IMG/VR virus record: IMGVR_UViG_3300009705_000030
Coordinates: 1 to 44,320 of that record
DNA from: a virus
Strand: one strand, 5' to 3'
Length of the DNA: 44,320 bases
Shown here: one piece after another, positions 10,875 through 40,254 of the stretch
How the letters are laid out: every line of letters starts with the position of its first letter
Numbering within the stretch: position 1 is the stretch's first letter
Notes under the pieces: model-generated
Database searches by the model: none
Seen by the model: only the letters and a program-made list of their open reading frames with translations
Told to the model about the DNA's origin: nothing
Program-made: the position numbers and the translations under genes

Positions 10875-10879
10875 TAGAG

Positions 10880-11689
10880 ATGATGGATAATCAAGCATTG
10901 CCCGGAGCTGCGGGAAGTGGAGATCACAGGGTTTTCTCAAACTTTTTTTCTGATCATAATATAATTCAAAATGTTGCAATAGTTCAGCCAAAAAATCTTT
11001 TAATATCGGCAATGAGAGATATCTTTAGAGCTGATTCTATATTTACATATAGAGATGATAAGTATGGGTATCCTTTGACACCAAACTTAACTGGTATGGA
11101 CGTTGACTCCGTGCTAACAACAAAAATTTTAATAAGTGATGTTTATCGTTATGAGGTTAAATTTTTTCCAGCTATAGTTGTAAAGTCAAATGGCGGTACA
11201 TACAAGCCTTTGTCATTCAATCAAAATATGACATTGAAGCATAGGGAAGACATTATTGAGAATAATTACGGCTCTATAAGCAAAATAAAGACCCCGACAC
11301 ACAGAGTGTATGCGGGGATGTGGGAGCTTTCTTTCGACATCATGATATATTCAGAAAGTCATTCCGAATTGGAGGAGCTAACTGAAATTGCAAGTATGGC
11401 TCTTCAGTATTCTTTATGGCAAGATCTTAGGGCTAATGGTCTTTTTATAAAATCTTTGTCTATAGGTGCAGAAAATGCGGAGCCTTATGCTAATGATTTT
11501 GTTTATAGTCAGAATATTACACTGAGCACGCTTTCTGAGTGGAGGGTTGAGATTCCACTAGATTCTATTATTGAAAAATTAGTTTTCTATTTTGATTCAA
11601 CCAGGCATCCTGTTCCAGGACAGAAAACTCAAGCAGACGTTGCGGCCTTAAATTACAGTGATATTTTAGAAAAAACACAAATTAAATGA
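10880..11689 (+). CDS. Probable tail terminator / neck protein (gp15-like)
   Basis: This 269-residue protein sits directly upstream of the sheath, where myoviruses usually encode the tail terminator or sheath-stabilising neck protein. Its organisation fits T4 gp15-type proteins: an N-terminal helix (NLLISAMRDIFRAD), a beta section (DVYRYEVKFFPAIVVKS), then a strand-helix-strand core (MWELSFDIMIYSESHSELEE, EIASMALQYSLWQDLR) and a final strand (EWRVEIPLDSIIEKLVFYF). This is resemblance in architecture and gene order, not a motif match. Two ATGs stand in tandem at 10880 and 10883, both served by AAGGAAGAG at 10863-10871. It would cap the finished tube and contact the head completion proteins. 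Alternative: another neck or sheath-associated protein. Confidence 0.45.
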   Translation: MMDNQALPGAAGSGDHRVFSNFFSDHNIIQNVAIVQPKNLLISAMRDIFRADSIFTYRDDKYGYPLTPNLTGMDVDSVLTTKILISDVYRYEVKFFPAIVVKSNGGTYKPLSFNQNMTLKHREDIIENNYGSISKIKTPTHRVYAGMWELSFDIMIYSESHSELEELTEIASMALQYSLWQDLRANGLFIKSLSIGAENAEPYANDFVYSQNITLSTLSEWRVEIPLDSIIEKLVFYFDSTRHPVPGQKTQADVAALNYSDILEKTQIK

Positions 11690-11751
11690 GAATATAATTA
11701 AACTACTAATAATAATCAATGAATTGATATTGGAAACTCGGAGGGAACTAA

Positions 11752-22800: not shown

Positions 22801-24933
22801 ATACCGGGAGTTACCGGGGCTGCAAGGCCTGTTAATTCTGGAAAGAAGGCTCTAGAATTTTTTGGAGTTAGGATAAATGATGGAGCCGTAACCCTTGGCG
22901 GCCCAACATCTGGCATATCACAAGCGTTATTCGGAGAGGGTGAAAAGGCAAACTTCACTGTTGGTGGCGAAGGCGATCAGAGTAGCGGAAGTGGTATGTC
23001 GTTAAATGTATCATGGAGTGATGACGGAGATGTTTTATATGGTGATACGGAGACGGTTCTTGGAGATTTTGATCCGGTATTCCAAGAGACAACGCTTGGT
23101 GGAGCTGGGATAGGAGTTCATGACGGCGTTTTGAGAGCAGTAAGCCTCGGGTCTCATCCCGTTAATAACGATGAGATTGTGAGTGCGTCATCGCTAACTT
23201 CGCTCAGAAATACATTTAGGAAAAATTATGGCATGGATCCCGCAGCCGGATTAGGGGTGGGAGAGCAGGGTTTTCAGGATGAGGATTTTGTTAAGAAATT
23301 AGATAGTGATTCTCAAAAACTTACAAAAATAAATTCATTATTTCAAAAATTAGCCATTACGATTTCAAAAAGAGATAGCCTTGTTACAATTTTAAAAAGG
23401 AATCGGGAAAAATTAGATGAGATTGAAGCCATAGAGTCGATAGTTAGTGGTGAATTTACAGACGCAACATCTAGCAGCAGAGAGCCTGAGCTAAGCGTGG
23501 AGTTTTTAGGAATAGACTTAAATGAATCTTTGGATAAGATAAAGAAGGTCAAGTCATTATTAAATGGAGATATAGACAGTGATTCGTCGTCTTCGTTAGA
23601 CTATCTGATTGAAAATGATGAGAGGAATTTTTTAGGTGCAGGCTCTGGAAGAAGATTCGTAATTAATGATGATGAAATAATTTCTGTTACATTTACAGAA
23701 TCTCCGCCCAACGCCACAAGAATTGATGTTTTCGGTTCTGCGCCTCTTGGGCTTGAGGACAGCCTAAATAAGGGTATGGATGGTATGTATTTTTGGGCAG
23801 GAGCAACAGACTTTGATTTATGGAGGCAGTATGGGTATAAGCCAGAGACAATAAGATTGCCATTCTCTAACGATGCAGAGCTTCAGTCTAGACCATATGC
23901 AATACTGCAATTGCAATTAGAAAGAACAAAGATAAACAAAGCCAATGTGACAGTTGCCGGAAATGAGTTTTATCAGCCCGGAGACGTTGTCTTTATACCA
24001 GAAAAAGGGCTTCTGTATTATATAGAGAGTGTTCAACAGCAGTTTACATATGGCTCTAGCTTTCAGACATCATTGTCTCTGAATTATGGGCACCCTCCGG
24101 GACAATACTTGCCTAGCCCTCTAGATGTAATAGGTGGACAGCTGACAACCAACCCCCTAGGAGGAAGGATTCTCACGTATAGAGGTCAGAAAGAGGATGA
24201 TCTATACAGGGTTTTATCTCCAGATTGCGCAATAGTGTTTCCTCCAAATTATAATGGAGACATAGCAACACTTTTATCATATAGAAATAACCAAGAAAGA
24301 TTTTTTAATATAATGTTAGATTTGTCCGCATCAGTAATGGGCTCAAGGAAAATACTGATAAGAGGCTTTGCAAAAACTAGTGGAGATGAATCCAAGGTTA
24401 GGGATAATTTATCTGTAATAAAACAATTGCTTCAAGACCCGGTTCAGATAACTCAGACTAGCCCGGTGGGAGACCTGGCAGACGTATTTGGAGGTATGCT
24501 AAACGGCATTGGAGTTGGAGTGGGGACATCTAAGGGCACCTCGTCCATGATGCTTCCGAACGGACTTCAGGCCACACCGATAGACCCGTCAAATATAATA
24601 GAGCAGATAACACTTCTTACCGGAAGAAGCGACGAGTTTGGAGAGGCAAAAATACTTTGTATGGATAGGCTGCTGTATGGTTCCCACACTTTGGATGGGG
24701 ATAGCTCCGAGATGATACAGTTTGGAGGAGATTCGGATGAGCAATATACTGAGCAAGATTATGTTGCAATTTTTCCAAAAGATGGCCCAAGGCAGTCTAC
24801 ATGGTTAGATATTAGAGATAATCTAACGCAAATGTCTAACATAATTGAAATTGGAATTTTAAACATTCCGTCTACAAGTCAGTCATCTCAGAGTGGTAAT
24901 AGCACGTCTACGAGTGGAAGCATAATCAAATAG
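19849..24933 (+). CDS. Giant baseplate hub protein
   Basis: At 1,694 residues this is several times larger than usual hub proteins (gpD, gp27, gp44 types, about 350-450). Residues 1-260 are mainly helical and have no obvious hub counterpart. Hub-like beta domains begin near 264 (GVIEVSTFASFSTSCSIG, GSASIQIEDPYRVM), continue at about 397 (VHFYIRGNK) and 476-505 (GYVTDTSESFNAGKWSLSIN). A long middle contains a coiled coil at about 1150-1200 (KLTKINSLFQKLAITISKRD). The segment at 1366-1418 (TVAGNEFYQPGDVVFIPEK, YYIESVQQQFTYGSSFQTSL) is the typical last hub domain. A further 270 residues follow it. It should form the trimeric hub that adapts the six-fold tube to the three-fold spike encoded next. 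The ribosome site is weak. No peptidoglycan hydrolase motif is recognised. Confidence 0.75.
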   Translation: MSFNKKLEKKYSSLIDKMGNVQAGDYSVFVGQRPSESYLTESGYSVFLEQNKAKSITPKTRNIVSMSPDATILIKKKAFSTLGGYNDLRFMDKTEKMLLRATKALFAYKVAQIRAYESLTKFENHFDKYKEIHMGLLAEALDQTKYMVSGAQGTLTDREASELNRLRFTIYYDWQGKISLGEGLTMDEQSQYEEDKARFDELSKKANDASNISDFSSLGSTFNSLKNIATSTLEDLDYEAYRDDVLDIIKRNAFSIDSRLTTWIIDPDSLDNYGVGPGTGVIEVSTFASFSTSCSIGAGSIGSASIQIEDPYRVMTINDDDIEIAIEEALQGTVGLFNDLFNGGSGTPSLDTSSMLSAALEQGGLGGMDDSLDMDRVRDRLRTFYLGKPFINPADGVHFYIRGNKTKQDDSNQFGSVWSSRTGGESSFDDSYLAIDDSILEAERRLYTSGRIDFESYKKIRTYSDNSFGMIHVFGGYVTDTSESFNAGKWSLSINCSDNMGWLDWSKYVENPALQDAKGILEDPLTPYKLKVDDSGRVMAEEGPELLSENKTLLQSGLLSYGSGLLAGKTASEGNLIQGQFSGSGSLYGAGILQHPNGFVYRWKDGIITATTEVTVIDERSTSVSNTKTFNQGYALAATDTPLSNLDVANILSLLIVGEPYNVQTYMEQTLEAMTRSATSGLTLNPADPLTAIIETTRRQNSFYGNFKPYRRITMSNDVASKISADSIMKSQVNSAISGLQSRRAELRAQRSKIITVDESDVSPNEQAIASNILANALDVEIDSIGKGIEQQLSLINEQGILSSAEGIHISFNLDGSPKIVNLSEDMNEDPSFTKAVSLVGAQRRIEDVRLNRDKNLFIVSDQYDSSTDIRPFLLKLRDSSWNLFDSSYTSVLERCKAACSYINFEFFCNSQGHIEFRPPQWNKTPLTVLEGLFKLNEERKVIPDFLSNVFNTRSDSLRLEIHSLNINIVIISLLMNKYPDKTLIPGVTGAARPVNSGKKALEFFGVRINDGAVTLGGPTSGISQALFGEGEKANFTVGGEGDQSSGSGMSLNVSWSDDGDVLYGDTETVLGDFDPVFQETTLGGAGIGVHDGVLRAVSLGSHPVNNDEIVSASSLTSLRNTFRKNYGMDPAAGLGVGEQGFQDEDFVKKLDSDSQKLTKINSLFQKLAITISKRDSLVTILKRNREKLDEIEAIESIVSGEFTDATSSSREPELSVEFLGIDLNESLDKIKKVKSLLNGDIDSDSSSSLDYLIENDERNFLGAGSGRRFVINDDEIISVTFTESPPNATRIDVFGSAPLGLEDSLNKGMDGMYFWAGATDFDLWRQYGYKPETIRLPFSNDAELQSRPYAILQLQLERTKINKANVTVAGNEFYQPGDVVFIPEKGLLYYIESVQQQFTYGSSFQTSLSLNYGHPPGQYLPSPLDVIGGQLTTNPLGGRILTYRGQKEDDLYRVLSPDCAIVFPPNYNGDIATLLSYRNNQERFFNIMLDLSASVMGSRKILIRGFAKTSGDESKVRDNLSVIKQLLQDPVQITQTSPVGDLADVFGGMLNGIGVGVGTSKGTSSMMLPNGLQATPIDPSNIIEQITLLTGRSDEFGEAKILCMDRLLYGSHTLDGDSSEMIQFGGDSDEQYTEQDYVAIFPKDGPRQSTWLDIRDNLTQMSNIIEIGILNIPSTSQSSQSGNSTSTSGSIIK

Positions 24934-24945
24934 GTATATTTAGAA

Positions 24946-27333
24946 ATGTCAAGAATAAATAGAATGGGCAAAGTAGGGACGATACTTAAAGTTATCGACT
25001 CTGATGATAGAGGGCCTATAAAATACTCTATATCTGTAGATGGAACCTCCTATTCCAACCTCGAAGCCGTGAGCCTTGACCATGGCACCAATTCTGTATA
25101 TGATGAAGGTGACCGAGTGGCATGCAGTCTGGTAGATCCAGGCTCTGGGTTTGGATATATTATTGTCGGCCTTTTGCCAAATGTAAATCAGGGAAAGAAG
25201 GGTACTGACGCTAAGGCGGGAACCGTCCCCTTTTCAAGAAAGCTAAAAAGAGGTAGCAAGAGGGTTGGAGATTCGGAATCCTACTTTTGTGCAGATAAAT
25301 CCGGAGGGCTTAAAATTTCCAGCGGTATATTTGGTTCTACCTTATCTAGAGATAAGAGATCTGGGGTTTATTACTATGATGTATACGAAGGAATGTCTGA
25401 AAATACCTCTGCTTCAAAAACATACTCTAGGCCAGTCAGAAGAAGCCATGTGTCTACCGAGAGAGAATCTGTAGCGGAAGGTGCAGATACTAAATTTCAT
25501 ATAGCGTCAAAAAGAGTTGGGTTGTTTGAAGAGCAATCGAGGCCGACAAAGGTAGGTGGCATATTAGGAACCAAAAGAAACATTGAGCTTTCGGAAGTTA
25601 GATTCGTATCTCATGAGTTTTCCCAATCATATCATTTTTCTGGATTTGAAGATGAAATAGGCAAAATAAACGGAGAGCTTAACCTAAAACAAAGAAGCTT
25701 CTCCCCTCCATATCCCGGAATTTTGGGTGGGAAAAATAGAATAAAGGCTGCGGACAACCTGCTTCTTTTGGCTGAAAATGAATTAACTGAAACTATATAT
25801 GGTAATGTTGTTGATCTAAACAAGAATAAATTAGATATAAATTACAACCCCATACACCTTGGCTCTCCGCCAACCGATAGTGACGCTATGACTGAAGCAA
25901 AGCTGTTGTCTAGAAGGGGTCTTGGCGTTCACTTTCAGTTATCTACGAACTCTACACATTCTGAAACTAAAGAATATACTAGTGACAAAGGCTTTGTATT
26001 TTGCATGGACAAAGAGGGTGCATTCAGAATGCACGTTCCAAAAACAAGTGATACTGGAAATATATTATATCCAATTAGTGCCGATTTTTCAATGCATAAA
26101 AATGCGGTTGAAATGGAAACGCTGCCGCTACTAGAGTCTTCTGAAGAGGGGGTCCCGGTAACTCTCAGAGACCAGGATGGGAAAATTGTATTTCCTTCGG
26201 CAGATGAAAATACCGGAGAGGTTGTAAGTGATACACCTGGTTTGCGGCGAACTGGGATTTCTTATTCGAATAATAGTGGGTATTTCAATGCCGGACTGGG
26301 AGAGAACGTGGTAAGTGTAAATCACACAAGACACCACAATATGTATGCTGCGGCAGAAGCCTTGATAGCCAATACCATACATCATATTCTAATCCCAACT
26401 CAATATACTACTAATTACTGGATTGGGCCGGGAGGGCTTACTACTAGCGATCCTGGAGATAACCCATTATTTTTAAAGCTAAGCCTTGCAACTGATACCT
26501 CTAATTTAAACGTTTTTGAGGTTCCCTTTCCGGAGGGAACTGAGAGGACTGAGAATTTTAAAACGGAAGAGATTAGCCAGTTTCCACAATATGGGGGAAC
26601 AGTCGCTGTTGAGCCTGAATCTCCGGCTATGTATAATGGGGGAAAGCTCATTGTGGCCGGAAGCAAGACAAATTCACCTCGCTATACTAACGGCTTTTCG
26701 GTTTCTGATGGAAATGTGGTTCCAGATGAAGGGGGGCAGAAGACTGGCGGCAAGAGTGCTAATATAAACTTTGAAGGCTCTATCGACGTATCGGTTGGCG
26801 CAGATAATCAAGATATGAAAAGTATTGTTCTGGATGCCGCTGGCGCAATGATAGCCTGGCTGGGAAAAGATGCTAACGGAAGAAGCATGATAATGCAGAC
26901 AGATGGAGATATGCTGATAAACGTTGGCGGTGGCTACTCGGGTTCAGATCCCGAAACTTCAGCCTCAAGGGGGTTTAATGAAGGAAGGTTTGACTTGAGG
27001 GTTAATGTTACAGATAAGGGGTTTACAACGACAACTTTCGATCCAGTTACTGATGCAGACGGAAACGTTGTTCCTATAGACGTTGAAGGTGGAGATGGAA
27101 ACCCTCTATACGCCTCTGACTATATTATATCTATCGGAAAGCATGGAATGGTTATCGCCGGAATGAACCCTACTGCTAATATGATTATAAGGAATGATGG
27201 TAATTTGCTAATTGAGAGTGCATCTGGAGACCTAACTTTAAAAGGAAATATGGTTAGAATTGTAGAAGGCGCCAAGAAGCCGAGGGGTGCTGGAGAAAGC
27301 AAGACTTCTGGAAACGCTTCGGTGTCAACCTAG
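24946..27333 (+). CDS. Central baseplate spike protein
   Basis: This 795-residue protein follows the hub, as spikes do. Residues 1-75 look like the OB-fold of gpV/gp5/VgrG-type spikes (MGKVGTILKVIDSDD, LEAVSLDHGTNSVYDEGDRV, GFGYIIVGLLPN). The C-terminal 185 residues have short alternating strands expected of a trimeric beta-helix needle (VLDAAGAMIAWLGKDANG, MIMQTDGDMLINVGGG, MIIRNDGNLLIESASGDLTL). The intervening 500 residues are unusual for this family; they contain a histidine cluster near 459-482 (VNHTRHHNMYAAAEAL, then IHHIL). The protein should close the tube and pierce the outer membrane or wall. No apex HxH iron motif is visible at the very end (GAKKPRGAGESKTSG), so the tip may be completed by another protein. 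Confidence 0.75.
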   Translation: MSRINRMGKVGTILKVIDSDDRGPIKYSISVDGTSYSNLEAVSLDHGTNSVYDEGDRVACSLVDPGSGFGYIIVGLLPNVNQGKKGTDAKAGTVPFSRKLKRGSKRVGDSESYFCADKSGGLKISSGIFGSTLSRDKRSGVYYYDVYEGMSENTSASKTYSRPVRRSHVSTERESVAEGADTKFHIASKRVGLFEEQSRPTKVGGILGTKRNIELSEVRFVSHEFSQSYHFSGFEDEIGKINGELNLKQRSFSPPYPGILGGKNRIKAADNLLLLAENELTETIYGNVVDLNKNKLDINYNPIHLGSPPTDSDAMTEAKLLSRRGLGVHFQLSTNSTHSETKEYTSDKGFVFCMDKEGAFRMHVPKTSDTGNILYPISADFSMHKNAVEMETLPLLESSEEGVPVTLRDQDGKIVFPSADENTGEVVSDTPGLRRTGISYSNNSGYFNAGLGENVVSVNHTRHHNMYAAAEALIANTIHHILIPTQYTTNYWIGPGGLTTSDPGDNPLFLKLSLATDTSNLNVFEVPFPEGTERTENFKTEEISQFPQYGGTVAVEPESPAMYNGGKLIVAGSKTNSPRYTNGFSVSDGNVVPDEGGQKTGGKSANINFEGSIDVSVGADNQDMKSIVLDAAGAMIAWLGKDANGRSMIMQTDGDMLINVGGGYSGSDPETSASRGFNEGRFDLRVNVTDKGFTTTTFDPVTDADGNVVPIDVEGGDGNPLYASDYIISIGKHGMVIAGMNPTANMIIRNDGNLLIESASGDLTLKGNMVRIVEGAKKPRGAGESKTSGNASVST

Positions 27334-27374: not shown

Positions 27375-30026
27375 ATGATTTTAGTAGGCGCAGTGCCAAT
27401 GAAGATTTCGGAAGACGCGGCTAGCTCAATTAGAGTTAGCTGCTTCGAGGCAGTTACTACTCAAGATATAACTGCATCTCCAGATTCTGGAATCCTATTC
27501 CCAAAGGCTGCTGTTAGCGCCGGAAAGCTTCCCCTGGTTGGCGGCGCTATTGTTAAAATTGGAACAGGTGGTCAAAATATACAAATTGTAAGATACGGAG
27601 GAACGGACGGTAGCATAGACGATGATAAGTGGGCGCCGCAAATAGATGAAGTAAAAGCAGAGTTTTCATCTATTGAGGGGGTTGTAAATGAGGTCGGAGA
27701 TAGCGCAAACTTATCAAATTTGGTTTCTGTAAGAAATAAAATAAATAAGTCACTATTTAATATATCAAAAAAAGGACTTACAAATTCAAACGTTAATGCA
27801 ACTTTCCGCGAAATACCTAGGGTATATATTTCTACTTATTATGGAGATATAGATACTATAACTCCAGAAGATGGAACTCATCCTGGAATTAATCATGAAA
27901 TAAACAGATTTGCAGAGTTAACATATATTCCACTAGATGTCTTTGGGAAGATATCTAGCATGCTAAAGGATAAGTTTAAAGACTTCTACGGAGTGACTGG
28001 AAAGACGTTCGGAGAAATAGGGGACTTCTTCGGAACAGATGGAGCCCTTGATTCTTCAAAGATAAATGATGAGATGATCAAAGGCTGTCTTCTTGAGTTC
28101 TTGCCAATATATAATATGTCAGAAGAGCAGATTATAAATGACAGCTTCAACCCAGATCTGGGTGGGTACTTTACGGTGTTTAGAGATAGCGCCGGAAACG
28201 ATACCATATATATAAAGATGCCGGATCTAACCGGAAGAGACTCTTCTGGCTTTACTTCTGATATATTCTCAGAGGACGAGCCCCCAATTCTTCTTATAGA
28301 GATGATAACTGACGATGGGGCTAGAAGAACCTCCATAGAGTACATGCCTCCCCCAGCATTGGAGCTTATAGAGGTTGGTTATGACCTGCCAACAGAATCT
28401 GATTCTCCTGATTTAAACATTGAGCTGTCTGGGCAGTTTTCAAACAACTCTGGCTCGAAGGTTTACCTATCTGTAATGGCAACTTCCTCTCTGGGCAGGA
28501 TTGCTGGGTTTAGAAAGACACAGGATAGTATGGTAGAGATATTCTCAGCACCATTACTGACTAAGCCGATGGAATCTGGAATTTGGGAATCGGGCGGTGA
28601 CGGAAAGGGGGTGTTTTCCGCAGACCATACAGAGGATATTGCTGGAAAAATAGGAGAGCTTTCCGCGTTACCGGATAATATATTTAACATATTTAAGCCA
28701 CGTGATACATCGGATGTAACCGAAATTACAGCATGGAATACTTTGGCAATTGGTGATAAATATAATATAGAGGTTACAGACCTGGGCTTTCCGCTATCTG
28801 TCTCATCTCAGCTATCTGGAACAATAATGGATATGGCAGGGGAAATGGGAAGGCCGGATTTGTTAATTTCAAATAGGGATATTCAAGCCTCGTCCGGATT
28901 TGCAAGGAATAATGATAAGTTCTCAAATCCAAAAGTCTATGGGGCTAGAGAGTTGCTAGCCTCTGCAAGGCCAAGCCTTTTAGACGTGTCTGAGCCACAA
29001 GTCCCTGCAGAGCCATTCTGGATAGAGGGTGACATAACATATGAAGAGGATTCTGAAACTGCTATAGCGACATTTAGTAAAGATAAGTTTGCAGATATAT
29101 ATTACCCCGGAGATGACGTTGGGACTTCAGAGTATATGTTTTCGATGTATATTATTGACAACATTGGGCAAATGGTAAGAGTTCCTGGTCCAAATATAGC
29201 GCTAACGGTCAAGAGCCCGGATCTTGATTCAATGAGCCCAAATGGATATTATGGAGGGCCTGTTGTTTCTTCAGACGGACAGCCTCAGTTTAGGTTTAAG
29301 TCAAGCACAAATGACTTAGACGGTATCTTTTCCTTTAAATTTTATAACGAAGACATGACCGAGGTGCTTGAGGTTAGGGAAAATATCCCTGGTGTCTTGC
29401 AAGACCAGGGCTGGTTTGCCAAAACATCTGGAGCGGTTACTGCTCAGATAGACTTGCCATTAACAACATTAGGTCTTGAGTCGGGAGCATACTTTGTTAG
29501 GGCGGTTAATAAATATGGAGCAGAAAGCGCGGCCATAAGAGTATACATTGCAGAGCCAGGAACTGAGAAATCGGACCTGCCGCCTGAGCCGGGAAAGAGC
29601 TATCTTTCATTCTTCAAAGAGTCAAAGAATTTGAAATTAGCCGGAATAAGCAAGAAGAATGACGAAACCGGGGTTAATGAGGCATCTGGTATTCCCATTC
29701 CCATGGACGGACAGAGTAGTAAGCTGAAGCTAAAGTATAAGGGCGGAGTATTTAAGAAGAACTCAAAAGTGCATTGTTATTTGGCATTTACAGATGAAGA
29801 TAGCGCAAAGCATTTTTCTGCGGAATCAGATATTGTGACCGTTGTTACAAAAACTGAAGATGGGCTAACATTATATATACCAAAAACACTGAAATATGTT
29901 TTAGACGAGGGTGCCGACTTTATAAGGCTTTCAAATAGGAAGGCCCAATTAATGCTACCTGGCACTAAATATGCAAAGTATAATTGGAATAGCGTAATAA
30001 GCGCAGAATCGGCCTATGTTTTGTAG
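27375..30026 (+). CDS. Large baseplate-region protein, upstream half of a probably split gene
   Basis: This 883-residue protein is of unknown function. The N-terminal 100 residues form a beta domain (GGAIVKIGTGGQNIQIVRYG). Residues about 545-735 have the rhythm of Ig/FN3-like sandwiches (PQFRFKSSTNDLDGIFSFKF, LGLESGAYFVRAVNKYG), followed by a Pro-rich linker (SDLPPEPGK) and another beta domain. The frame ends abruptly at TAG 30024-30026 in the middle of what looks like a strand (AESAYVL). The -1 frame is open across the stop and continues as credible protein into the next gene, so the two probably form one 2,405-residue protein disrupted by one missing base in the T run at 30019-30022. GAGG at 27361-27364 supports the start. 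Its place after the spike suggests a baseplate component. Confidence 0.6.
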   Translation: MILVGAVPMKISEDAASSIRVSCFEAVTTQDITASPDSGILFPKAAVSAGKLPLVGGAIVKIGTGGQNIQIVRYGGTDGSIDDDKWAPQIDEVKAEFSSIEGVVNEVGDSANLSNLVSVRNKINKSLFNISKKGLTNSNVNATFREIPRVYISTYYGDIDTITPEDGTHPGINHEINRFAELTYIPLDVFGKISSMLKDKFKDFYGVTGKTFGEIGDFFGTDGALDSSKINDEMIKGCLLEFLPIYNMSEEQIINDSFNPDLGGYFTVFRDSAGNDTIYIKMPDLTGRDSSGFTSDIFSEDEPPILLIEMITDDGARRTSIEYMPPPALELIEVGYDLPTESDSPDLNIELSGQFSNNSGSKVYLSVMATSSLGRIAGFRKTQDSMVEIFSAPLLTKPMESGIWESGGDGKGVFSADHTEDIAGKIGELSALPDNIFNIFKPRDTSDVTEITAWNTLAIGDKYNIEVTDLGFPLSVSSQLSGTIMDMAGEMGRPDLLISNRDIQASSGFARNNDKFSNPKVYGARELLASARPSLLDVSEPQVPAEPFWIEGDITYEEDSETAIATFSKDKFADIYYPGDDVGTSEYMFSMYIIDNIGQMVRVPGPNIALTVKSPDLDSMSPNGYYGGPVVSSDGQPQFRFKSSTNDLDGIFSFKFYNEDMTEVLEVRENIPGVLQDQGWFAKTSGAVTAQIDLPLTTLGLESGAYFVRAVNKYGAESAAIRVYIAEPGTEKSDLPPEPGKSYLSFFKESKNLKLAGISKKNDETGVNEASGIPIPMDGQSSKLKLKYKGGVFKKNSKVHCYLAFTDEDSAKHFSAESDIVTVVTKTEDGLTLYIPKTLKYVLDEGADFIRLSNRKAQLMLPGTKYAKYNWNSVISAESAYVL

Positions 30027-30154
30027 TCAATAAGGCGATAGACGAGATTGCAAGCCCAGGTTCTTCAGATACGTGGGCTACGTCTGAATCATACAAGGAT
30101 AATGGCTCTTATGCTTATTTTAAAATAACCGAGAGGGCGGACTCTGATAAAAAA
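29993..30154 (+). other. Coding-like junction between two halves of a split giant gene
   Basis: In the frame of the downstream gene this stretch is open from just after a TAG at 29990-29992 to ATG 30155, with no ATG, GTG or TTG start in it. It translates to credible protein (VVNKAIDEIASPGSSDTW, NGSYAYFKITERADSDKK). Adding one T to the run at 30019-30022 turns SAYVL-stop into SAYVFVVNKAID and joins both genes. The zero-frame codons TAT GTT TTG TAG do not form a canonical -1 slippery heptamer, so a mutation or sequencing/assembly error is more likely than programmed frameshifting. Confidence 0.6.
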
Positions 30155-33100
30155 ATGCCCCCCTTTGTAGGGCCTCCAATAATAACAAATATGGTTCTTG
30201 GTGACAAATCCGGTCCAAACAATGAAAGTGAGAGCAAAATAGTAAGAACATCTTCGTCTTCAGTGTCAAATACGCTGAGGGGCATGTTATCTAACTATGG
30301 GTTTGATCAGGCGGCTACTGGTCAAATTGTTGAAAGCACAAAACATTCTGCTATATCGAAGATACAGAGGGCCGTAATAGTCTTTAATGGTCATGATTTT
30401 AAAGCTAAGCATAAATTTAAATTCGGAACTCAAAAGATAAATAAAAAAAGAATTGGCAAAATCAGAGCGCTTTCTTCAGAACAGGAATCTGGCAAGCTGG
30501 TAGCTGGATTTAGAAATCTATCATCGTCTACAGATGGGTATATGTCAATAACTGTTGAGTCAAAATATAAAAAATTCAAAGTCACTATGACATCTGATAA
30601 GTTGTATATAGGACTTACGACCACAGATATTCCTAGCGATCTTTATACCATAGATCCCAAGACGGATTCCCTAATCCTATCATCTGCTTGGGTGAGTGAG
30701 ATAGTTACTGGAGACTCCACGGATGAAAAAGCGGCGTTTGTAGGAGAGGCTCCGTTTACAATTGCTGATGGGGCAGCACTTGGACATGGCTCGCTTCTAT
30801 TTGGGGAGGGAAATGGGTTGATGATAACTAGCGAATCTGCATCTGATGGGCCTATGGCTAACTCAGATTATGTACTACAGATTCCAGTTTCTATAACTCC
30901 AACTAACTTTGACTTTAAGATGATGATCGCAAAATCTTCAGATAGTGTAGAGGATTCCAGGGTTGGGTCTAAGTTATCATACTCAACCTTAATGAAGGGT
31001 GTAACAACTTCAGATATCTCCAGAATTGCTAGAGCTAAAGACCTGTTGGTGCCATCAACTGTTAAGTTGGATTCTGGAGTAGAGATACCAAGATCCGCAT
31101 ATTCTTTAGACAGTACAGAATCGGCAACAGCAAAATTATTTTTAAAAGCACAGGTATCAAACTATGCAGCAATAGAGTACAACATACCTGAAATAATCAA
31201 AGTCGTTAGAAAAAACAACAATGAGGTCTTTGAGGCTGGTGATTTTGAAAACCTAACGTTTGAAGCGAAAGAAAGGCTTATAGTGTATGTTAAGGGAGCG
31301 AGAAGATATGCTTCAATAACAATAAACGATATAAGATGTCGTGTCATATCCAGAAGGATGGAAAATGGTGTCCTTAAGGCGAAGATAGTGGTTCCAAAGG
31401 CTCTAGCATTTATCAATGTAGATGATTGTTTGACACTTGCTGCATCAAATTCAAATGCAGAGAGAAATAGAGTTAGGGCCCTCTTGGGTGACGGGTTCAC
31501 ACTAGATCTGGAGCAAATATTTGAAGATCTTATACTCGGGCCTCTTAAGGATAAGTTGGCAGATATAGAAGAACTTCTGAACAAACTGCTGGAGGGTCCA
31601 CTGCAGTTTATAAATGTCTTGATGGATAAAGTCGCCGCCTTGAAAGAGATCATACAAAGCTTTTGTGACATATCCTTCCATTTGACAGCAGAGCTTCAAG
31701 CACACCTCAGAGGTTTTCAGGTTCTTCTAATCCCGATTCAGGTTATCTTCTGTATTATAGATGTTATATGTGCGCTATTAAATCCATTTAAGCTGGCAAA
31801 AGCAATAATAAGGCTTTTTCAGTGTTTATTTGATTTGATATTATTATTACCACAGCTATCCGTGCCGGTAATGTTCTTAAGACTACTCCTGCACCTACTG
31901 GACCTTCTTGAGTGTCTTATCCAAAAAATACTTGGAATTATAACTGCAATAAACGAGATTATAAAAGCAATTGATAGGGCCATAAAGTACAAAAACTGGC
32001 CGGCAATAAAAGCGCTAGAAGAGGTTTTGTCCGAGTATCTATTTTCAGTTGAAGCTGATCTCCAGGTTCTTGAGCCTATTATAACAATTTTGGCAATATT
32101 TCTTCAGCTGCTTCAAATGTTCTTTAGATTCCCATGCGAAATAACGCCTGGAACTGGAGATGCGGAATGCGGAGTCGATGGAACAATATTGGCCGGAATT
32201 TTAGGAGGAAAGCTGGCCCCAGGGGGAAGCATAACTCCTGATATCGCGCTTCCTGTTGCACAATCTATAAGCGTTGAGCCGTTAGCGTTTATAAAGGTTG
32301 ATAATGAGCCATATCCGGATGCAGATAGTGGTGGTACGGACCTTATAGACGTTAAGGATAACTTGGGAACGACACTAATAAGGAAAGATTTCTCTGAAGA
32401 CGATGTTGTTGAGGCAGATGACCTATACGAAAGAGAGGAGGGTGATCTTCTAAGCGATGTTGGACTATTTATAGATGCTTTGGACATGGTGAAGATTGGC
32501 TCCGGAGATGAAGAGGAAGATACCTTGAGAATCAACTCTGTATATAACGATCCAGGTTCTGATTCTGCCAAGCTAGGGAAGAAGAACCACGGAACCTTCG
32601 AGGTTTCGTATTCTAAGTCAAAGAAGGGTGGGTCATGGAAAAAGTCAAATCCTGCAGCTGTAACATTTAAGTTCAATCAAAAGGGAAGAACGAATATTGA
32701 CTGGTGGTTTTTCAGAAAAGCTTTTGATCCGGATCAGACATTAGATTCTCCAATAACACTTCTTAATAAAAGTGGAGATGATATAAGCATTAGATCCTCG
32801 GGCAAGGGGAAGTTTGTTAGTCCTATAGATGGTCACGATGACTTCCTGGATTTCAATGGAGATACCGCATCCGTTAAGCCGCTAATACTTCCTATAGATT
32901 TTCCAATATATGAAGTAAACCCAGACACGGGAGAGTTGGATCTTATAGAAACCAGAACGGAGTACAAAACTTTTGATGGCATTCCTAGAATGGCTATAAT
33001 GGATGATCAGTTTAATCTTTATTATATAAAAGAAGACGGCATTGTATTCGGAGAAGACCCTGATACTGAACAAAATAATGTCATTCTTGAGATAAAAGCT

Positions 33101-34591
33101 GTCATGCAAAATCATCCTGCTGCTCCAAAACATGCTACATCAAGAGAGAGCATCGTAATGGTTAACGAAGTTGGTCTTGAATACTTGTTTACACACAAAG
33201 AGAAGAGAGGTGGCTTCTGGACGGGTGCGACAGCCTCTGGGCTTGCAGCATTGTTTGACGGCGACAGCTCTCCGGATGAGATAATCAGTGACTTATCTTC
33301 AGCACAATTCAAAGTATGCGATGACGGAAATTCTTATTTCAAGCCATTAGTCACTGCAGAAGGCTGGCCAGCAGATGAAGGTGGAATTCCAAAAAAACCA
33401 AATCTTAATAACAACGCTCATATCGCGCTTGTAACAGAGAAGGTTGTTGAGGACTTCATAAAGGTTGTTGATGGCGATGGGATTTCGGTCATTCCAGGAA
33501 AGGCCATTGATAATATTCCTCTATTAGATTTTCCAAAGCTATATTTTGTAGACGTAAGACAGGCGGAGGAAGAGATTCAGCAGATGTGCACAAATGCTAC
33601 GATTAATCAGTCAGCTATACCTTCCGAAGAAGATACATCTGCTGTAACAAAACTGATTGAGGAAGCTAGGGACTGTGTAGAGAAGTATCCTATAACAATC
33701 AAGGCCGCTACTTCGAAGGTTAGGGCCTCCATTGCGGCCTATCCGGAAACCAAATTGCTTCCCGATCTAATACCTATAGGGGACATTGTTGCTGCAGGAG
33801 AGGAGCTTCAATTGTGCATAGAGGATATAGCGAACAAAACTTGTGTTTTTGTTGTTAATGAGCTATCAACATCATTTAAGGTTCTTGAGGATGAAGACAT
33901 AACCCCTGTTGCTGGGTTCTCAACGATGATAACTCCGGCAGAAATAATAGCTGGGCCAGGAGTTGTTGGTGATGCGCCAGAAGAATATGGCCCAAGATAT
34001 ATTGGAGCAAGAGAGTACGCCTCTGGGGACGGTGACAGTGCGATCATAGAAATAGGAGAGTTTGCAACTATCGAATTAACACCAAGAGAGTGTTATGGGA
34101 ATGTAGCGCCAGGTTTGAAATTCGAAGAAAAGGTTGAGATGGAAATATTATCAGACGGAACAGGCTCTGCTAGGTTCATAGATTATGAAGAAGATGATGG
34201 TGGAACGGTTGCAAGATATCTTGCCAAAGGGAATAGCGTTTACGCTAGAATAACTTCAGACGCAATTGGTGAGATAAAGATAAAGGCATCTGTTTGTGGA
34301 AAGACAATTCAGGCGTTAGCGTTCTCTGGATTTGAAGATATAGTGGAAGAACTCTCATCTGCAGAATCCGCAGTTGATTGCATAGAAGATGGTGTAGACG
34401 CAGATATAATGTCAGAGGTCGAGACACCGCTCGGAGGCTTGTCTAGGGTAGATAGGGTTCTGAGTGTGTTCTTTGTCGATACCGGAAAGGGAGATGAGAT
34501 GCTCCTTTCGGACATGTCAAGCAAGGAGGATGATGATGCTCTCCTTGCCAAGTCTAATCCACAGACCTTTGGAACTAAGCTGGAGAATTAA
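30155..34591 (+). CDS. Large baseplate-region protein with hydrophobic helical domain, downstream half of a probably split gene
   Basis: This frame encodes 1,478 residues from the first ATG, but the frame is open 162 bases further upstream and the ATG lacks a well-placed ribosome site, so the true N-terminus is probably the preceding gene. Residues 1-440 are beta-rich. Residues about 447-665 are a long helical region with strongly hydrophobic segments (FQVLLIPIQVIFCIIDVICA, FQCLFDLILLLPQLSVPVMF, ILAIFLQLLQMFFRF) and seven cysteines, an unusual composition for a baseplate protein. The remainder is acidic and beta-rich with more cysteines, ending in an Ig-like stretch (EIGEFATIELTPREC). I recognise no family. 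The hydrophobic part could insert into the host membrane or act as a hydrophobic assembly core; both are inference. Confidence 0.6.
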   Translation: MPPFVGPPIITNMVLGDKSGPNNESESKIVRTSSSSVSNTLRGMLSNYGFDQAATGQIVESTKHSAISKIQRAVIVFNGHDFKAKHKFKFGTQKINKKRIGKIRALSSEQESGKLVAGFRNLSSSTDGYMSITVESKYKKFKVTMTSDKLYIGLTTTDIPSDLYTIDPKTDSLILSSAWVSEIVTGDSTDEKAAFVGEAPFTIADGAALGHGSLLFGEGNGLMITSESASDGPMANSDYVLQIPVSITPTNFDFKMMIAKSSDSVEDSRVGSKLSYSTLMKGVTTSDISRIARAKDLLVPSTVKLDSGVEIPRSAYSLDSTESATAKLFLKAQVSNYAAIEYNIPEIIKVVRKNNNEVFEAGDFENLTFEAKERLIVYVKGARRYASITINDIRCRVISRRMENGVLKAKIVVPKALAFINVDDCLTLAASNSNAERNRVRALLGDGFTLDLEQIFEDLILGPLKDKLADIEELLNKLLEGPLQFINVLMDKVAALKEIIQSFCDISFHLTAELQAHLRGFQVLLIPIQVIFCIIDVICALLNPFKLAKAIIRLFQCLFDLILLLPQLSVPVMFLRLLLHLLDLLECLIQKILGIITAINEIIKAIDRAIKYKNWPAIKALEEVLSEYLFSVEADLQVLEPIITILAIFLQLLQMFFRFPCEITPGTGDAECGVDGTILAGILGGKLAPGGSITPDIALPVAQSISVEPLAFIKVDNEPYPDADSGGTDLIDVKDNLGTTLIRKDFSEDDVVEADDLYEREEGDLLSDVGLFIDALDMVKIGSGDEEEDTLRINSVYNDPGSDSAKLGKKNHGTFEVSYSKSKKGGSWKKSNPAAVTFKFNQKGRTNIDWWFFRKAFDPDQTLDSPITLLNKSGDDISIRSSGKGKFVSPIDGHDDFLDFNGDTASVKPLILPIDFPIYEVNPDTGELDLIETRTEYKTFDGIPRMAIMDDQFNLYYIKEDGIVFGEDPDTEQNNVILEIKAVMQNHPAAPKHATSRESIVMVNEVGLEYLFTHKEKRGGFWTGATASGLAALFDGDSSPDEIISDLSSAQFKVCDDGNSYFKPLVTAEGWPADEGGIPKKPNLNNNAHIALVTEKVVEDFIKVVDGDGISVIPGKAIDNIPLLDFPKLYFVDVRQAEEEIQQMCTNATINQSAIPSEEDTSAVTKLIEEARDCVEKYPITIKAATSKVRASIAAYPETKLLPDLIPIGDIVAAGEELQLCIEDIANKTCVFVVNELSTSFKVLEDEDITPVAGFSTMITPAEIIAGPGVVGDAPEEYGPRYIGAREYASGDGDSAIIEIGEFATIELTPRECYGNVAPGLKFEEKVEMEILSDGTGSARFIDYEEDDGGTVARYLAKGNSVYARITSDAIGEIKIKASVCGKTIQALAFSGFEDIVEELSSAESAVDCIEDGVDADIMSEVETPLGGLSRVDRVLSVFFVDTGKGDEMLLSDMSSKEDDDALLAKSNPQTFGTKLEN

Positions 34592-34593
34592 TT

Positions 34594-36351
34594 ATGAGTA
34601 GCAACCTTGTTTCGAAGATAATAGAAGATATTTACATTATAATAGAAGACTCATTTGGCACAAACTTCGACAGAGAGCTGTTTGGAATGCTATTTGATCA
34701 AGCCGGAGACCCGTCTAAAATATTTAGCTCCATTCCTACGAGTATACAGAGGATTAGGTCCTCGTACCTTCCTGCGGATCTTTTCAGCTCTAATGTTGCG
34801 GCGCTTGGTGCAGCAGAGGCGCTTCTTGGAAATATGGGAGTAGCTTCTGAGATTTTTTCTGGAAATATATCAAATTCCCAGGCTCCAAAAGAGTCTAATG
34901 AAAATGCATTTATGAGAATGCTTGGCATGCCTATGTCGGACGCTGAAGAGTTGCAAAGTGGAGAGCTCTCGATATTGGATCATACAACTGGGGAGTTGGA
35001 GCAATCAGAGACGACAACTTTATATGCAGTGGAAACCAGGATATTGGACGAAAGAAGCAAGCCATTTGGCACAAGAGAGGTTGCAGTAAGCAGTAATTCC
35101 TTTTCGTTTTCTGGAGTAAAGGTTACGCCATTAACACAGGAAGAACTTGATGCAGCTTTGGATGATGAGGGGAGCGGTGTGCAATCCGCCGAAGAGCAGC
35201 TTGATAGCCTAGGGGGAGATGCGTCTGCGGCAATTGAGGCCGCAGCAGGGGGTGTAGCTCTATATACAGCAAGCCTTCTTGATATTGACCAGCCAAGTGG
35301 TTTTTTTAAATTTTCATACTTATTAATACCGCCAATACAGGATGCTAGAATCTCTAAATGCATTAACGAGCCAGGCAAAATAGTTGCAAAGCCATTTTCA
35401 ACAACCATGGGCAGAACGGTCAATCAGCAAAGAACAAAACAGTCGTTTTTAGAATCTGTTATAAGAATTAGACTTGATAGGGCGACGGGAACTCAGTGGT
35501 CAAGTCCGGCCGAATCTTTGAAAGAAAACAAAACAATTGACTTTGGGCTTGGAGATGATGACGATGAAAATAAAGTAAGGTATAGTGATGTAGTAAACGA
35601 ATGGGGAATAATTGAGAGTTTAATTATAACAAGATTAGACATAATGCTTCAAATTATGGCTGATGATATTTCAGAAAAAATTCATCACATTATGGAGAGT
35701 CAGGCCGAAGGCCTAATGCATATTGAGCGAGATAGGGAGCTTAACCCAGATACTCCATCTGAGAATAATACCCCGGGCGCAGATGATTCTTGCGCGGCAG
35801 CGGAGAATGATCGGAGTATCCTGCAGAGGCCGGAGCTGTCTCTTTTATTTCAGGCCAAAACAATTGAAGATGCTCTACTTTTATTTTTTGGAGGAGAGAA
35901 CTCGGCCTCTTTGGACCTTCAGTCGGAAACCCAAAGAAATTCCGGACTAAGAGATGGGCATCTTATGTCTCCGCTTATGTCGATAATAAGGTCTATATCA
36001 ACTGGAATAGACAATAGGATTGATGAAATAACAGAAGATCGCTGCGATGAAATACCCGCTACTCAAAGGGCGGTGAGTGATGCAAATACCACAATCGGGA
36101 TGACTACTGGAGTTGGGCCTATAGATATCGCGGTATTTACTTTAGCATTATTTACTTTAGATGAGGAGGCCTTACTTGGTCTTTTAACCAATGAGCAATA
36201 CGAAAATTTTATGAATATAGAGATGAGTTATATATCAGAAAATGATGGAAATGCTGAAAAGCAAGATATGAGGGAGTCTTTAAATGCACTTTCTGAGCAA
36301 ATTAGAGACTCTTATTTTTTATTTTTAAATTATCTTTCACAAGAGCTATAG
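34594..36351 (+). CDS. Large structural protein of unknown function
   Basis: This 585-residue protein is not recognised. The first 110 residues are helical (KIIEDIYIIIEDSFGTNFDR). Residues 145-225 hold a beta section plus an acidic Ser/Ala-rich stretch (LDAALDDEGSGVQSAEEQLD). The middle has mixed structure (FFKFSYLLIPPIQDARISKC) followed by helices (GIIESLIITRLDIMLQIMAD), an acidic Asn/Asp linker and a helical C-terminus (NALSEQIRDSYFLFLNYLSQ). The ATG lies 2 bases after the preceding stop with GGAG about 9 bases upstream, so the two are probably co-translated and their products may work together in the baseplate. A terminator follows the gene, marking the end of this module. Confidence 0.5.
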   Translation: MSSNLVSKIIEDIYIIIEDSFGTNFDRELFGMLFDQAGDPSKIFSSIPTSIQRIRSSYLPADLFSSNVAALGAAEALLGNMGVASEIFSGNISNSQAPKESNENAFMRMLGMPMSDAEELQSGELSILDHTTGELEQSETTTLYAVETRILDERSKPFGTREVAVSSNSFSFSGVKVTPLTQEELDAALDDEGSGVQSAEEQLDSLGGDASAAIEAAAGGVALYTASLLDIDQPSGFFKFSYLLIPPIQDARISKCINEPGKIVAKPFSTTMGRTVNQQRTKQSFLESVIRIRLDRATGTQWSSPAESLKENKTIDFGLGDDDDENKVRYSDVVNEWGIIESLIITRLDIMLQIMADDISEKIHHIMESQAEGLMHIERDRELNPDTPSENNTPGADDSCAAAENDRSILQRPELSLLFQAKTIEDALLLFFGGENSASLDLQSETQRNSGLRDGHLMSPLMSIIRSISTGIDNRIDEITEDRCDEIPATQRAVSDANTTIGMTTGVGPIDIAVFTLALFTLDEEALLGLLTNEQYENFMNIEMSYISENDGNAEKQDMRESLNALSEQIRDSYFLFLNYLSQEL

Positions 36352-36451: not shown

Positions 36452-36883
36452 ATGTCTTTTGATTTAAGAATTAGAAATGGTGATTTGGGCATAGATGCTG
36501 ATGGATCCATGAAGTTAGTTAATAATAATACAAAGTTAAGGCAAGATATTGTAAAAATACTCCTTACGGACCTTGGAGAGAATAAATTCCATAAGTTTTA
36601 TGGAAGCAGAGTTGGGGCTCTTGAAATAGGTGGAGTTACAGACAGAAGCATTATAGACTCTGATTTAGAAGCTTCGGTCAGGAGAGCTCTTTCTAACTTA
36701 ATATCTATGCAAAAAGTTCAATTAAAAAAGCAGTTTTTAACATCAGGTGAAAAGATATTGGAAGTTACTTCAGTTTCGGTAGAGAGAGATGGGGCCGATC
36801 CGAGAATGTATAATGTTTTTATATCTGTTTTAACTCAAAAATTAAGTACAATTAGTGAAGTAATAACTATAAGAATAGTTTAG
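36452..36883 (+). CDS. Baseplate wedge protein, gp25/gpW-like
   Basis: At 143 residues and placed directly before the J-like gene, this fits the gp25/W family, small wedge proteins that contact the sheath's first ring and trigger contraction. The N-terminal strand (MSFDLRIRNGDLGIDADGS) and helix-turn (DIVKILLTDLGENKFHKFYG) correspond to the family pattern of a helix ending in a 'LLT-PGE-----FG' turn. The C-terminal strand pair (ILEVTSVSVERDGADPRMYN, FISVLTQ) follows the family as well; DPR stands where many members have EPR. An AGGATAT ribosome site precedes the ATG. It starts the wedge transcription unit after the terminator. Confidence 0.75.
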   Translation: MSFDLRIRNGDLGIDADGSMKLVNNNTKLRQDIVKILLTDLGENKFHKFYGSRVGALEIGGVTDRSIIDSDLEASVRRALSNLISMQKVQLKKQFLTSGEKILEVTSVSVERDGADPRMYNVFISVLTQKLSTISEVITIRIV

Positions 36884-36891: not shown

Positions 36892-39800
36892 ATGGCTATA
36901 TTCAGATCTTTTAGTGAAATAGTATCTTCTATGATTGAAAGATTAAGGCTAACACAGCCGAATTTAGATACAAAGCCCGGAACTGTCGCTAGAGATTTAT
37001 TTATCGACATACAAGCAGACCAGATAGAGCGCCTGCACAAGGCCTTGTCGCTGATAAGTGAAAAACAATCATTTGGAACAGCATCTGGCAGGGACCTCGA
37101 CAGGCTTGCCAGGAACTTTGGAATATCGAGAAATAGCGGAACTCCATCAACAGGGGTCGTCGTCTTTACCACGAATGATGTAATTTCAGATGTTCCAATT
37201 CCATCTGGAACAATAGTTACAGCAAGGAATGGGCTAGCATATAAAACTATAGGTAATTATGTTATTTCTTCCGTAGAAAAAAATCTTTATGCGGCAAACG
37301 CAACAAGGCTTAGGAGCGCTTTAAATACGGCAGGAATAAATGATTCTTTCTCCTTAGAGGTTCCGGTTGAAGCCACGAGGGCTGGGCAGTCTGGAAACGT
37401 AAGTTCTTTGCAAATAGTTAGCCACAGCCTTGGTTCCTCGCTAAAGGTTATAAACCTGTCCTCTCTTAGTGGGGGGGTAAATAGTGAGAGTGATTTATCA
37501 TTTAGGGCTAGAATTTTAGCAGTGTTTAGTGGCTCTAATACGGGGACTGCCGCTGGTTATAGAAATGCAGCATTAGCCGTGAATGGAGTTTTAGATGTCC
37601 TAGTTGCAGAACCCGGAAGCACATTAATGCTCAGGGATGGCACAGAGACGATAGAGATAAATGACGGCTCATTCAGAATATTGAGTTCGGGAACTGGTGG
37701 AAAAGTAGATATGTATGTTCTTGGGACCAGGTTAAAAGAAAATATAGAGTCCTTCATATATACGGATCTTTCCGGCTCTGGGACTGCAGAAGATGATAGA
37801 AATGATGTCGTGCTCGGACTATCTGGAATACAAGATAGCTCTATATATAAAAACTTAACATCAGAAGAGAGGAGGGTATCTACTTTTAAAAGTGGAAACA
37901 TACCAGCCCAACCAGTTAATTCTGTGGTATCTGTCGTAGGAACAGAGTCTGGAATATTCTCATCAAAGGTAACGAACTCTGACGGGTCTACTTCTGGAAA
38001 TTATGAACTGCTGAAGGATGATAATCCGGAAACCGGAGGAAGTCCGTTCTGTTTTGATAAGCTACATTGGATATTAAGTAAAAAAAATGTAATTGCAGAT
38101 TCCCTAACAAAGGGGTCTTTCAATTCCGCAGATTCTCTTGGATTTTCAGATATACAGGGAGTGGATGAGGTATATCAGGATCTTGTAATTAGTGGAGAAA
38201 ATTCTAAAATCAACATATCAGACAGAGGGGTTGTGAACCTAAATCATGGGCCAGTTGTGACGGTCTCTAGGGTTACCAACAGAACAACTGGTGAGATTTA
38301 TGTGGTTGAGTCCCAAAATATAGATAGCACGTCTGGCCTTAACGAAGATGCTCAGGTTGTAATATCTGGAAAGAACCTACCTACTTCTGCGGATATACTA
38401 TCGGTAGACTACCTGTGGAGGAGATATTTTGATAAGTATATTGAGTATAATGGCGCAGAATCTAACTCAATATATAAGGATCCATACGTAACTGACTCAA
38501 TAGATTGGGGTGTTTCATCTGGAATATCCGGAGAAGAGGCTCTGCTCGCGAGGACGGCTGATGATCTTGAGTATCAGATATCTGCTCAGCACCCTATATC
38601 GAGAATATCTTCTTTATATTCAAAGGTAGTTGAGGAGCTAGATACAGAGGTGGTGGAGGTAGAGGAGTCCACATTTGTAGCAATTATATTGAACTCAGAA
38701 ATGAATGAAGTAAAGAATATAGTGTCCATAAGAACAGAGTCTGGGCTGGAGGCTTATAATACTAATAAGAGTGATGGGACATTTTCCTCTAGGACAATAT
38801 ACCTTCCAACTGACAGTCCGGTTGCCTCCGGGGAGAAAGTTTATGTTCATTATAATAAAAATGAATTATTTTTTATAGAACAAAGTGACGCTTCATTTTC
38901 TGAAAACTTAGTCACTCTTCCATCAGAAGATATACTTTCTGAAAATGGATTACTAGATCTAGTGGAAGAGATATCAGATTTAGATGATAATTTGCATATA
39001 GACTATATAGCGGATATTTCCAATGTTTTTCCTGAAACAGATTTTTCAGGATTTCCCATACGTGGAAATAACACCACAAACTCCCTTTTGAGCTCTGGGC
39101 TATCTCAAATAGACAACTCTTATCAGCCTTTATTGTACAACTTTAATGTTTCTGGGGCTGTTAGTGGAATCATGAGGTTTTGTCCATCTAAAATAAAATT
39201 AACCACAACAGGTGTGGTTAAGTCTGGAAAGGTTAAAGTTCTTGGAACAACTTTTACGAGAGCTGTTTTTGATGTTGATACTGCAATATCCGTAACTGGC
39301 TCGTCTTCAGGATACTCTGGAGACTTGACGTTTGATATAGGATCTGAGATTAAAGAGTTTTTCGGGTTAGGAGAGCTTCCGTCAAATATATCAATCGCAA
39401 GAGTGGATTCCGTAGCTAAGCTAGATGTATTTGGAAGCGAAGAAGGGCATCTTGATATACTGGGATACACTATTTCTAAAAACAACTTTGACACAAGGAG
39501 TTCTTTATCTGATCCGCTTTTGGATGCCGGATCTTTTGTAATAAAAGATACAACAAAAAACTCAGGTATTGATATAACCGGAGGAACAAAGCTAAGGGTA
39601 TCTGTGTTAATATCCAATGAGAATGATTTTGAAGAAATATTTTTTAGAAGAAACGAGTCAATATTTACTGAAAAAATGTTCTCAAGGATAGATAGAGTTT
39701 CGATACCATCTGGATTCAGAAATTCTAGCGGTGTTTTAATCGGTTCTATATCTGCACTCATCTCCAATCAGCCATTATCTGGAAGCGCCTATAACGCTAG

Positions 39801-40254
39801 CTATAACTTCTCAGCTCCAAAAGAAGGCGAGCGGATTACTGTAAGGTATAATAATAATATTATTTTGCCAAACGTAACGGCATCACTTGAACAGGTTAGG
39901 TCCATAACTGCAGATGTATTGGCGAAAGAAGCGTCAGAGATTCTAATAGACGTTGACGGTCAAATATTAATTAACGAAGATTCTATCAATAATTCTGCTA
40001 CTATTGTGGAGAACGTATCTAGTCAGATCACAAATTTACTAAACACATCCAGGCTTGGTTCCACTGTTGATTACTCAGATATAGTTTCCGCAGCAACCTC
40101 TGTTAATGGAGTTGATTCGATAAATATATCGAAATTTAATGTTAGCGGAGAGTCTGGTAAAAAGAGTTTTATAAAATCGTTAGACAATCAGACCATATCT
40201 GCAGGAACAATATTATTTGAATCTGTTACAAGAGAAAATTTTAGGCTAACATAG
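36892..40254 (+). CDS. Baseplate J-like wedge protein with large insertion
   Basis: The N-terminal 300 residues are typical of J/gp47-type wedge proteins: an opening helix (EIVSSMIERLRLTQPNLDTK), PGTVARDLFIDIQADQIERL, SGRDLDRLARNFGI, then the beta section VVVFTTNDVISDVPIPSGTI and the later motifs ESDLSFRARI and ALAVNGVLDVLVAEPG. The C-terminal J segment reappears at about 1030-1120 (SQITNLLNTSRLGSTVDYSD, SAATSVNGVDSINISKF). Between them lie some 700 extra residues of beta-rich sequence, giving 1,120 residues instead of the usual 300-500. The strong AGGAGAT ribosome site and 8-base gap link it to the gp25-like gene. In the family, six or twelve copies form the iris ring around the hub. Confidence 0.85.
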   Translation: MAIFRSFSEIVSSMIERLRLTQPNLDTKPGTVARDLFIDIQADQIERLHKALSLISEKQSFGTASGRDLDRLARNFGISRNSGTPSTGVVVFTTNDVISDVPIPSGTIVTARNGLAYKTIGNYVISSVEKNLYAANATRLRSALNTAGINDSFSLEVPVEATRAGQSGNVSSLQIVSHSLGSSLKVINLSSLSGGVNSESDLSFRARILAVFSGSNTGTAAGYRNAALAVNGVLDVLVAEPGSTLMLRDGTETIEINDGSFRILSSGTGGKVDMYVLGTRLKENIESFIYTDLSGSGTAEDDRNDVVLGLSGIQDSSIYKNLTSEERRVSTFKSGNIPAQPVNSVVSVVGTESGIFSSKVTNSDGSTSGNYELLKDDNPETGGSPFCFDKLHWILSKKNVIADSLTKGSFNSADSLGFSDIQGVDEVYQDLVISGENSKINISDRGVVNLNHGPVVTVSRVTNRTTGEIYVVESQNIDSTSGLNEDAQVVISGKNLPTSADILSVDYLWRRYFDKYIEYNGAESNSIYKDPYVTDSIDWGVSSGISGEEALLARTADDLEYQISAQHPISRISSLYSKVVEELDTEVVEVEESTFVAIILNSEMNEVKNIVSIRTESGLEAYNTNKSDGTFSSRTIYLPTDSPVASGEKVYVHYNKNELFFIEQSDASFSENLVTLPSEDILSENGLLDLVEEISDLDDNLHIDYIADISNVFPETDFSGFPIRGNNTTNSLLSSGLSQIDNSYQPLLYNFNVSGAVSGIMRFCPSKIKLTTTGVVKSGKVKVLGTTFTRAVFDVDTAISVTGSSSGYSGDLTFDIGSEIKEFFGLGELPSNISIARVDSVAKLDVFGSEEGHLDILGYTISKNNFDTRSSLSDPLLDAGSFVIKDTTKNSGIDITGGTKLRVSVLISNENDFEEIFFRRNESIFTEKMFSRIDRVSIPSGFRNSSGVLIGSISALISNQPLSGSAYNASYNFSAPKEGERITVRYNNNIILPNVTASLEQVRSITADVLAKEASEILIDVDGQILINEDSINNSATIVENVSSQITNLLNTSRLGSTVDYSDIVSAATSVNGVDSINISKFNVSGESGKKSFIKSLDNQTISAGTILFESVTRENFRLT

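Follow-up and report, generated by a model that had tools for sequence, protein, structure and literature searches.

A hydrophobic helical domain of a central baseplate protein as a candidate membrane-insertion module in uncultured huge contractile-tailed phages

The 44,320-nt stretch of viral DNA analysed here (IMG/VR record IMGVR_UViG_3300009705_000030, positions 1 to 44,320; hereafter the window) encodes a large baseplate protein that contains a four-helix, very hydrophobic and cysteine-rich domain (residues ~503–662 of the ORF starting at position 30155), and this domain is shared with at least 81 related proteins from uncultured phages. Judging from sequence, and with a probability of roughly one-half, we propose that it serves a lineage of uncultured, contractile-tailed phages as the membrane-insertion module of a central baseplate protein; these are huge phages, as the records that bear homologues reach up to 481 kb. 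How DNA passes over the host membrane once the contractile tube has pierced the outer layers is an open question, for which the domain offers a testable candidate, being single-copy, highly conserved, spike-adjacent and absent from all of the cultured phages searched; moreover, its sequence signature could be used to find further phages of this kind.

The domain family and its genomic setting

Profile searches of IMG/VR, together with one contig from a GTDB genome, yielded 107 loci and 82 distinct proteins, which fall into two architectures. In group 1, to which the window protein belongs, ~1100–1600 residues precede the domain and the total length is ~2050–2770 aa. The compact proteins of group 2 span ~680–860 aa (mostly ~680–770, with one of 856): a Gly/Pro-rich start of ~60–80 residues leads into the domain, and this is followed by a C-terminal half that looks β-rich. 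The group 1 domain profile matches group 2 with E-values of 1e-15 to 1e-24, and it finds a single copy per record in all 19 of the long records tested. Within the 32 full-length group 1 proteins, the domain is the best-conserved part, with a mean pairwise identity of 45–74% per 50-residue block, as against 15–34% upstream and 26–50% downstream (62% over the last few residues). The sole hint of a host is a compact form (positions 10001–12196 of locus L135), encoded on a 383-kb contig that was binned with a Chitinophagales MAG and is probably of phage origin; 395 genomes of that phylum gave no other hit.

Beyond this family, four sequence queries detected no relative of the domain among 50,697 phage records, cultured phages included, and there was no credible match among plasmids, no credible profile match in Pfam or PHROGs, and no profile match to PDB chains at E 10. 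Profile searches of the tail regions of phage G, Tunturi_5, Phrappuccino, Myrna and LR745208 likewise did not find it. One homologue (L072) gave a PHROGs tape-measure match (8e-6), but this covered the greasy stretch only and was rejected as compositional.

The earlier note had assigned the hydrophobic region to a baseplate protein; the protein as called is incomplete owing to a one-base frameshift at ~30019. At this point, the window has TTTT where two records that are ~99.8–99.9% identical to it (L006 and L007) have TTTTT, and this homopolymer difference splits ORFs 27375–30026 and 30155–34591, which constitute one continuous protein in L006 and, until the contig end cuts it, in L007. Since neither these records nor the complete group 1 homologues are split (the latter being single ORFs of ~2050–2770 aa, with the exception of L065), the break is most likely an error in the window record or a rare variant. 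In L065 (8350–11748), the open frame runs for just 1133 aa to a stop, unlike its group 1 relatives, through either a frameshift or a split gene. Residue numbers given here are those of the window ORF, for which residue r corresponds to residue r+927 of the full protein.

The domain gene is part of a contractile-tail baseplate cluster, lying among genes for the hub, the spike, gp25 and gp6/J (Table 1). The order hub, spike, domain gene, pX, gp25, gp6 and gp7 is intact in 61 of the 82 cases, and at least one neighbour was not found in the other 21, mostly through contig ends. The closest cultured relative of the wedge protein is found in Bacillus phage G, with 29–32% identity. Additionally, the window encodes an unusually large tail sheath (11752–15282; 1176 aa; weak Pfam sheath C-terminal match) and two adjacent large proteins (174–5687 and 5687–9901) with very similar N-terminal ~150 residues, which look like a duplicated attachment domain on two tail appendages. 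The C-terminus of the second (9600–9901; residues ~1300–1404) combines basic and hydrophobic character and seems out of place in a tail appendage.

Table 1. Features of the window discussed in the text, in order of position
Feature	Position	Strand	Basis or remark
Tape measure candidate, 628 aa, without membrane-like segment	16949..18835	+	Position and composition
Hub-like gene, 1694 aa, upstream of spike	19849..24933	+	Putative function; weakly similar to gp185 of Bacillus phage G
Spike-like gene, directly upstream of domain gene	24946..27333	+	Putative, from gene order and sequence features; order hub, spike, domain gene conserved
Large baseplate protein, whole gene	27375..34591	+	~2405 aa; single ORF in near-identical record L006 (2405 aa)
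ORF carrying the hydrophobic domain, back half of gene	30155..34591	+	1478 aa
Helical hydrophobic domain, conserved, including its flanks (residues 437–700)	31463..32254	+	45–74% mean identity, 32 full-length group 1 proteins
Predicted helix 1, residues 503–541, contains FQVLLIPIQVIFCIIDVICA	31661..31777	+	AlphaFold2, 70-sequence alignment
Signature C-h-h-[D/E]-h-h-C (C533 to C539)	31751..31771	+	All 82 distinct homologues
Predicted helix 2, residues 544–562; contains conserved C557 and R553, the latter pairing in charge with D536	31784..31840	+	AlphaFold2
Predicted helix 3, residues 566–611, first half hydrophobic, second amphipathic	31850..31987	+	AlphaFold2
Predicted helix 4, residues 615–654, likely antiparallel to helix 3, second hydrophobic segment of the earlier note at its end	31997..32116	+	AlphaFold2
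Post-helix cysteines C661 and C672	32135..32170	+	Invariant across both architectures
pX, 585 aa, conserved immediate downstream neighbour	34594..36351	+	Gene order; not detected in locus L134
gp25-like baseplate protein	36452..36883	+	Putative, from size and position between pX and gp6-like gene
Baseplate wedge protein (gp6/J)	36892..40254	+	Pfam Baseplate_J, 3.6e-25

Membrane-like character of the domain

The region that had first drawn attention, some 220 residues long, is indeed strongly hydrophobic: the mean Kyte–Doolittle value is +0.89 over residues 447–662, where L/I/V/F/M/C make up 52% of the residues, versus 29% in the remaining protein. The surroundings are acidic (D+E 16%, K+R 10%), as had been stated, and both of the hydrophobic helices singled out at the time were located, at residues 521–540 and 645–659. 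Seven cysteines had been counted within 31495–32140; six are found there (residues 504, 533, 539, 557, 587 and 661), whereas the seventh, C672 at 32168, lies 28 bases outside. The peak 150-residue hydropathy mean of +1.14 exceeds both the maximum among 2000 shuffled versions of the protein (+0.97) and the maximum of +0.70 for 495 other large ORFs from related loci; even the homologue with the lowest 150-residue mean, at +0.76, lies above the latter.

All 82 homologues have between three and five membrane-like segments within the domain, the scores being simple window sums as opposed to the output of a trained topology predictor. On a Hessa-type scale, the compact group is clearly transmembrane (median −4.1), and group 1, with the window, is marginal (median +1.1). 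The compact homologues have unbroken hydrophobic stretches of ~20 residues (IFALIIMIISLLLLILALIEYII), with strongly negative insertion scores. In the window domain, the Wimley–White octanol sums are −9 to −13 in three segments, and the domain is poor in Trp and Tyr, with no aromatic belt. The helices are amphipathic, the polar face being a narrow strip, and for most of them the moment is above that of shuffles; those of group 1 contain conserved charges.

The variable columns of the helices are hydrophobic in 31 of 50 cases in group 1 and 32 of 49 in group 2 (62–65%), as compared with 10 of 41 (24%) in soluble control helices taken from the same protein (p 6e-4 and 1e-4, respectively). Such retained hydrophobicity at variable positions counts against a soluble bundle exposed to water. 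The same pattern, together with a hydrophobic single-chain surface, would also be expected if the helices were buried in an oligomer, and the main rival to membrane insertion is that they make up the hydrophobic interior of a trimeric or hexameric assembly that surrounds the spike or lies below it; there they would hold the baseplate together and never come into contact with a lipid membrane. The narrow polar strip of the amphipathic helices and the just marginally transmembrane score of the window's own group would suit this, as would the numerous conserved Cys, Pro and charge positions, which are compatible with tight packing; the ~20-residue hydrophobic runs of the compact homologues and their strongly negative insertion scores speak against it. 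We regard such a core as possible, if on the doubtful side; between the two options that the earlier note had offered, the membrane-inserting element is the better supported.

The tape measure contributes little to this choice. It had been described as short with few hydrophobic segments, and the 628-residue candidate contains none that are membrane-like; in 14 of these phages, moreover, the tape measure has no strong membrane segment. This fits the suggestion that a tape measure without a membrane part is the reason for the baseplate having one, but the tape measures of the cultured control phages Phrappuccino, Myrna and G likewise have no strong segments, and the contrast therefore carries little weight. 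Several cultured contractile phages lack the domain and have tape measures that are also devoid of strong segments; hence, the proposed function would not be general among contractile phages.

Conserved residues, predicted fold and proposed mechanism

Five cysteines (C533, C539, C557, C661 and C672) are invariant, or almost so, in both groups, as are C504 and C587 in group 1. In compact homologues, a C...CC....C cluster is seen past the helices (residues 239–257 of the L074 protein), and this is possibly metal-binding or disulfide-forming. Several polar positions of the helices rank among the most conserved. An opposite-charge pair, D/E at 536 with R/K at 553, is kept in 82 of 82 homologues and, given their near-equal distance on either side of the N543–P544 turn, the two side-chains probably face each other within a helix hairpin, as judged from this spacing; K/Q529 and D560 are further conserved polar residues in group 1.

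An AlphaFold2 model based on a 70-sequence alignment has a mean pLDDT of 73 and a pTM of 0.63, an earlier one from 11 sequences having been poor (pLDDT 57). The block-mean confidence is 73–97 at residues ~557–656 and 73–87 over most of helix 1, and it drops to 56–57 at the turn between helices 1 and 2 (residues ~537–556). The long helices 3 and 4 of the model are hydrophobic at the base and more polar towards the tip. The high confidence for these two helices in a single chain, and the short turns, which fit packed hairpins, are what a buried core would also predict; the lack of a similar fold among solved structures tells against that explanation. Foldseek returned Ig-like matches alone (filamin/invasin/S-layer type, E 0.005–0.05), covering ~100 residues, and none of the PDB structures matched the helices in fold.

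Some baseplates reportedly assemble at membranes, and the hydrophobic helices could serve as the anchor of a tail-assembly factor, a protein fixed to a membrane that would act as the platform for baseplate construction in the infected cell. The large β-rich and Ig-like flanks and the fixed place of the gene among virion structural genes are those of a virion protein, and we consider this role very improbable.

For the preferred reading, that of a membrane-insertion module, the following sequence of events may be envisaged. In the virion, the helices would be packed as hairpins, shielded by the β-rich flanking domains and by the spike and hub neighbours. Sheath contraction would drive the spike region into the envelope, the helical domain would become exposed and its hydrophobic faces would enter the host membrane, with D/E536 and R/K553 (and, in group 1, K/Q529 and D560) pairing inside the first helix hairpin. 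Alternatively, the conserved polar residues may border a narrow passage, should several copies come together. The hydrophobicity, predicted helices, conservation, single copy, gene order, cysteines, charge pair and hydrophobic variable surface are read from sequence; location near the spike, exposure upon contraction, membrane insertion, pore formation and virion copy number are all features that we infer. A bolder proposal, to which we give only tentative credence, is that the domain is a dedicated pore-former throughout a lineage of huge contractile phages, sited in a baseplate protein next to the spike and not reliant on the tape measure, and that its five conserved cysteines may act as a packing lock or as a redox or metal trigger; this would be a novel means by which contractile tails open the host membrane.

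The adjacency of the domain gene to the hub and spike genes would also befit a plug or gate, in which the helices seal the tail tube or the base of the spike and are shifted or expelled at ejection, membrane contact being incidental; indeed, the same helices of RcGTA that shut the channel have been proposed to penetrate the membrane as well (PMC7296036). Nevertheless, four helices and ~160 residues are far larger than the known iris helices, and the hydrophobicity of group 2 exceeds what a plug would need, such that we think this improbable.

Relationship to known ejection and pore proteins

A comparison with known ejection and pore proteins, as proposed in the earlier note, revealed likeness in the proposed function, but no sequence or fold relative was found in the PDB. 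In tape measures such as those of diffocin (CD1366), TP901-1, T5 (pb2) and Pam3, two to seven predicted membrane helices are believed to make up the ejection channel (PMC10996793, PMC5099701, PMC10038345). The domain shares with these the possession of several transmembrane-like helices (three to five per homologue); unlike them, it carries the segments in a baseplate protein, and the tape measure is a separate upstream gene, short and without them. Bacillus phage G, although the nearest cultured relative by its wedge protein, has no homologue of the hydrophobic domain in its baseplate region, as judged by profile search of the tail region.

A closer parallel is provided by RcGTA and the R4C megatron protein, in which a pore-lining helix is borne by a tail-tip protein distinct from the tape measure; this helical element, like the domain described here, is proposed to insert into a host membrane as a pore (PMC7296036, PMC10276861). 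No likeness to the RcGTA or R4C domain was detected by sequence (PDB profile, E 10) or by fold (PDB). Their iris/penetration domain is a ~46-residue N-terminal part of a hub-like protein in a non-contractile tail, whereas that of the window has ~160 residues in four helices, is encoded by a separate gene downstream of those for the hub and the spike, and belongs to a contractile tail; furthermore, it is internal in group 1, in contrast to the N-terminal position in the megatron. Because sequence, place and size differ, the domain is a member of neither the megatron nor the tape-measure class, and by analogy the likeliest interpretation is that it does, in a contractile tail, the job of the tail-tip helix of RcGTA and R4C.
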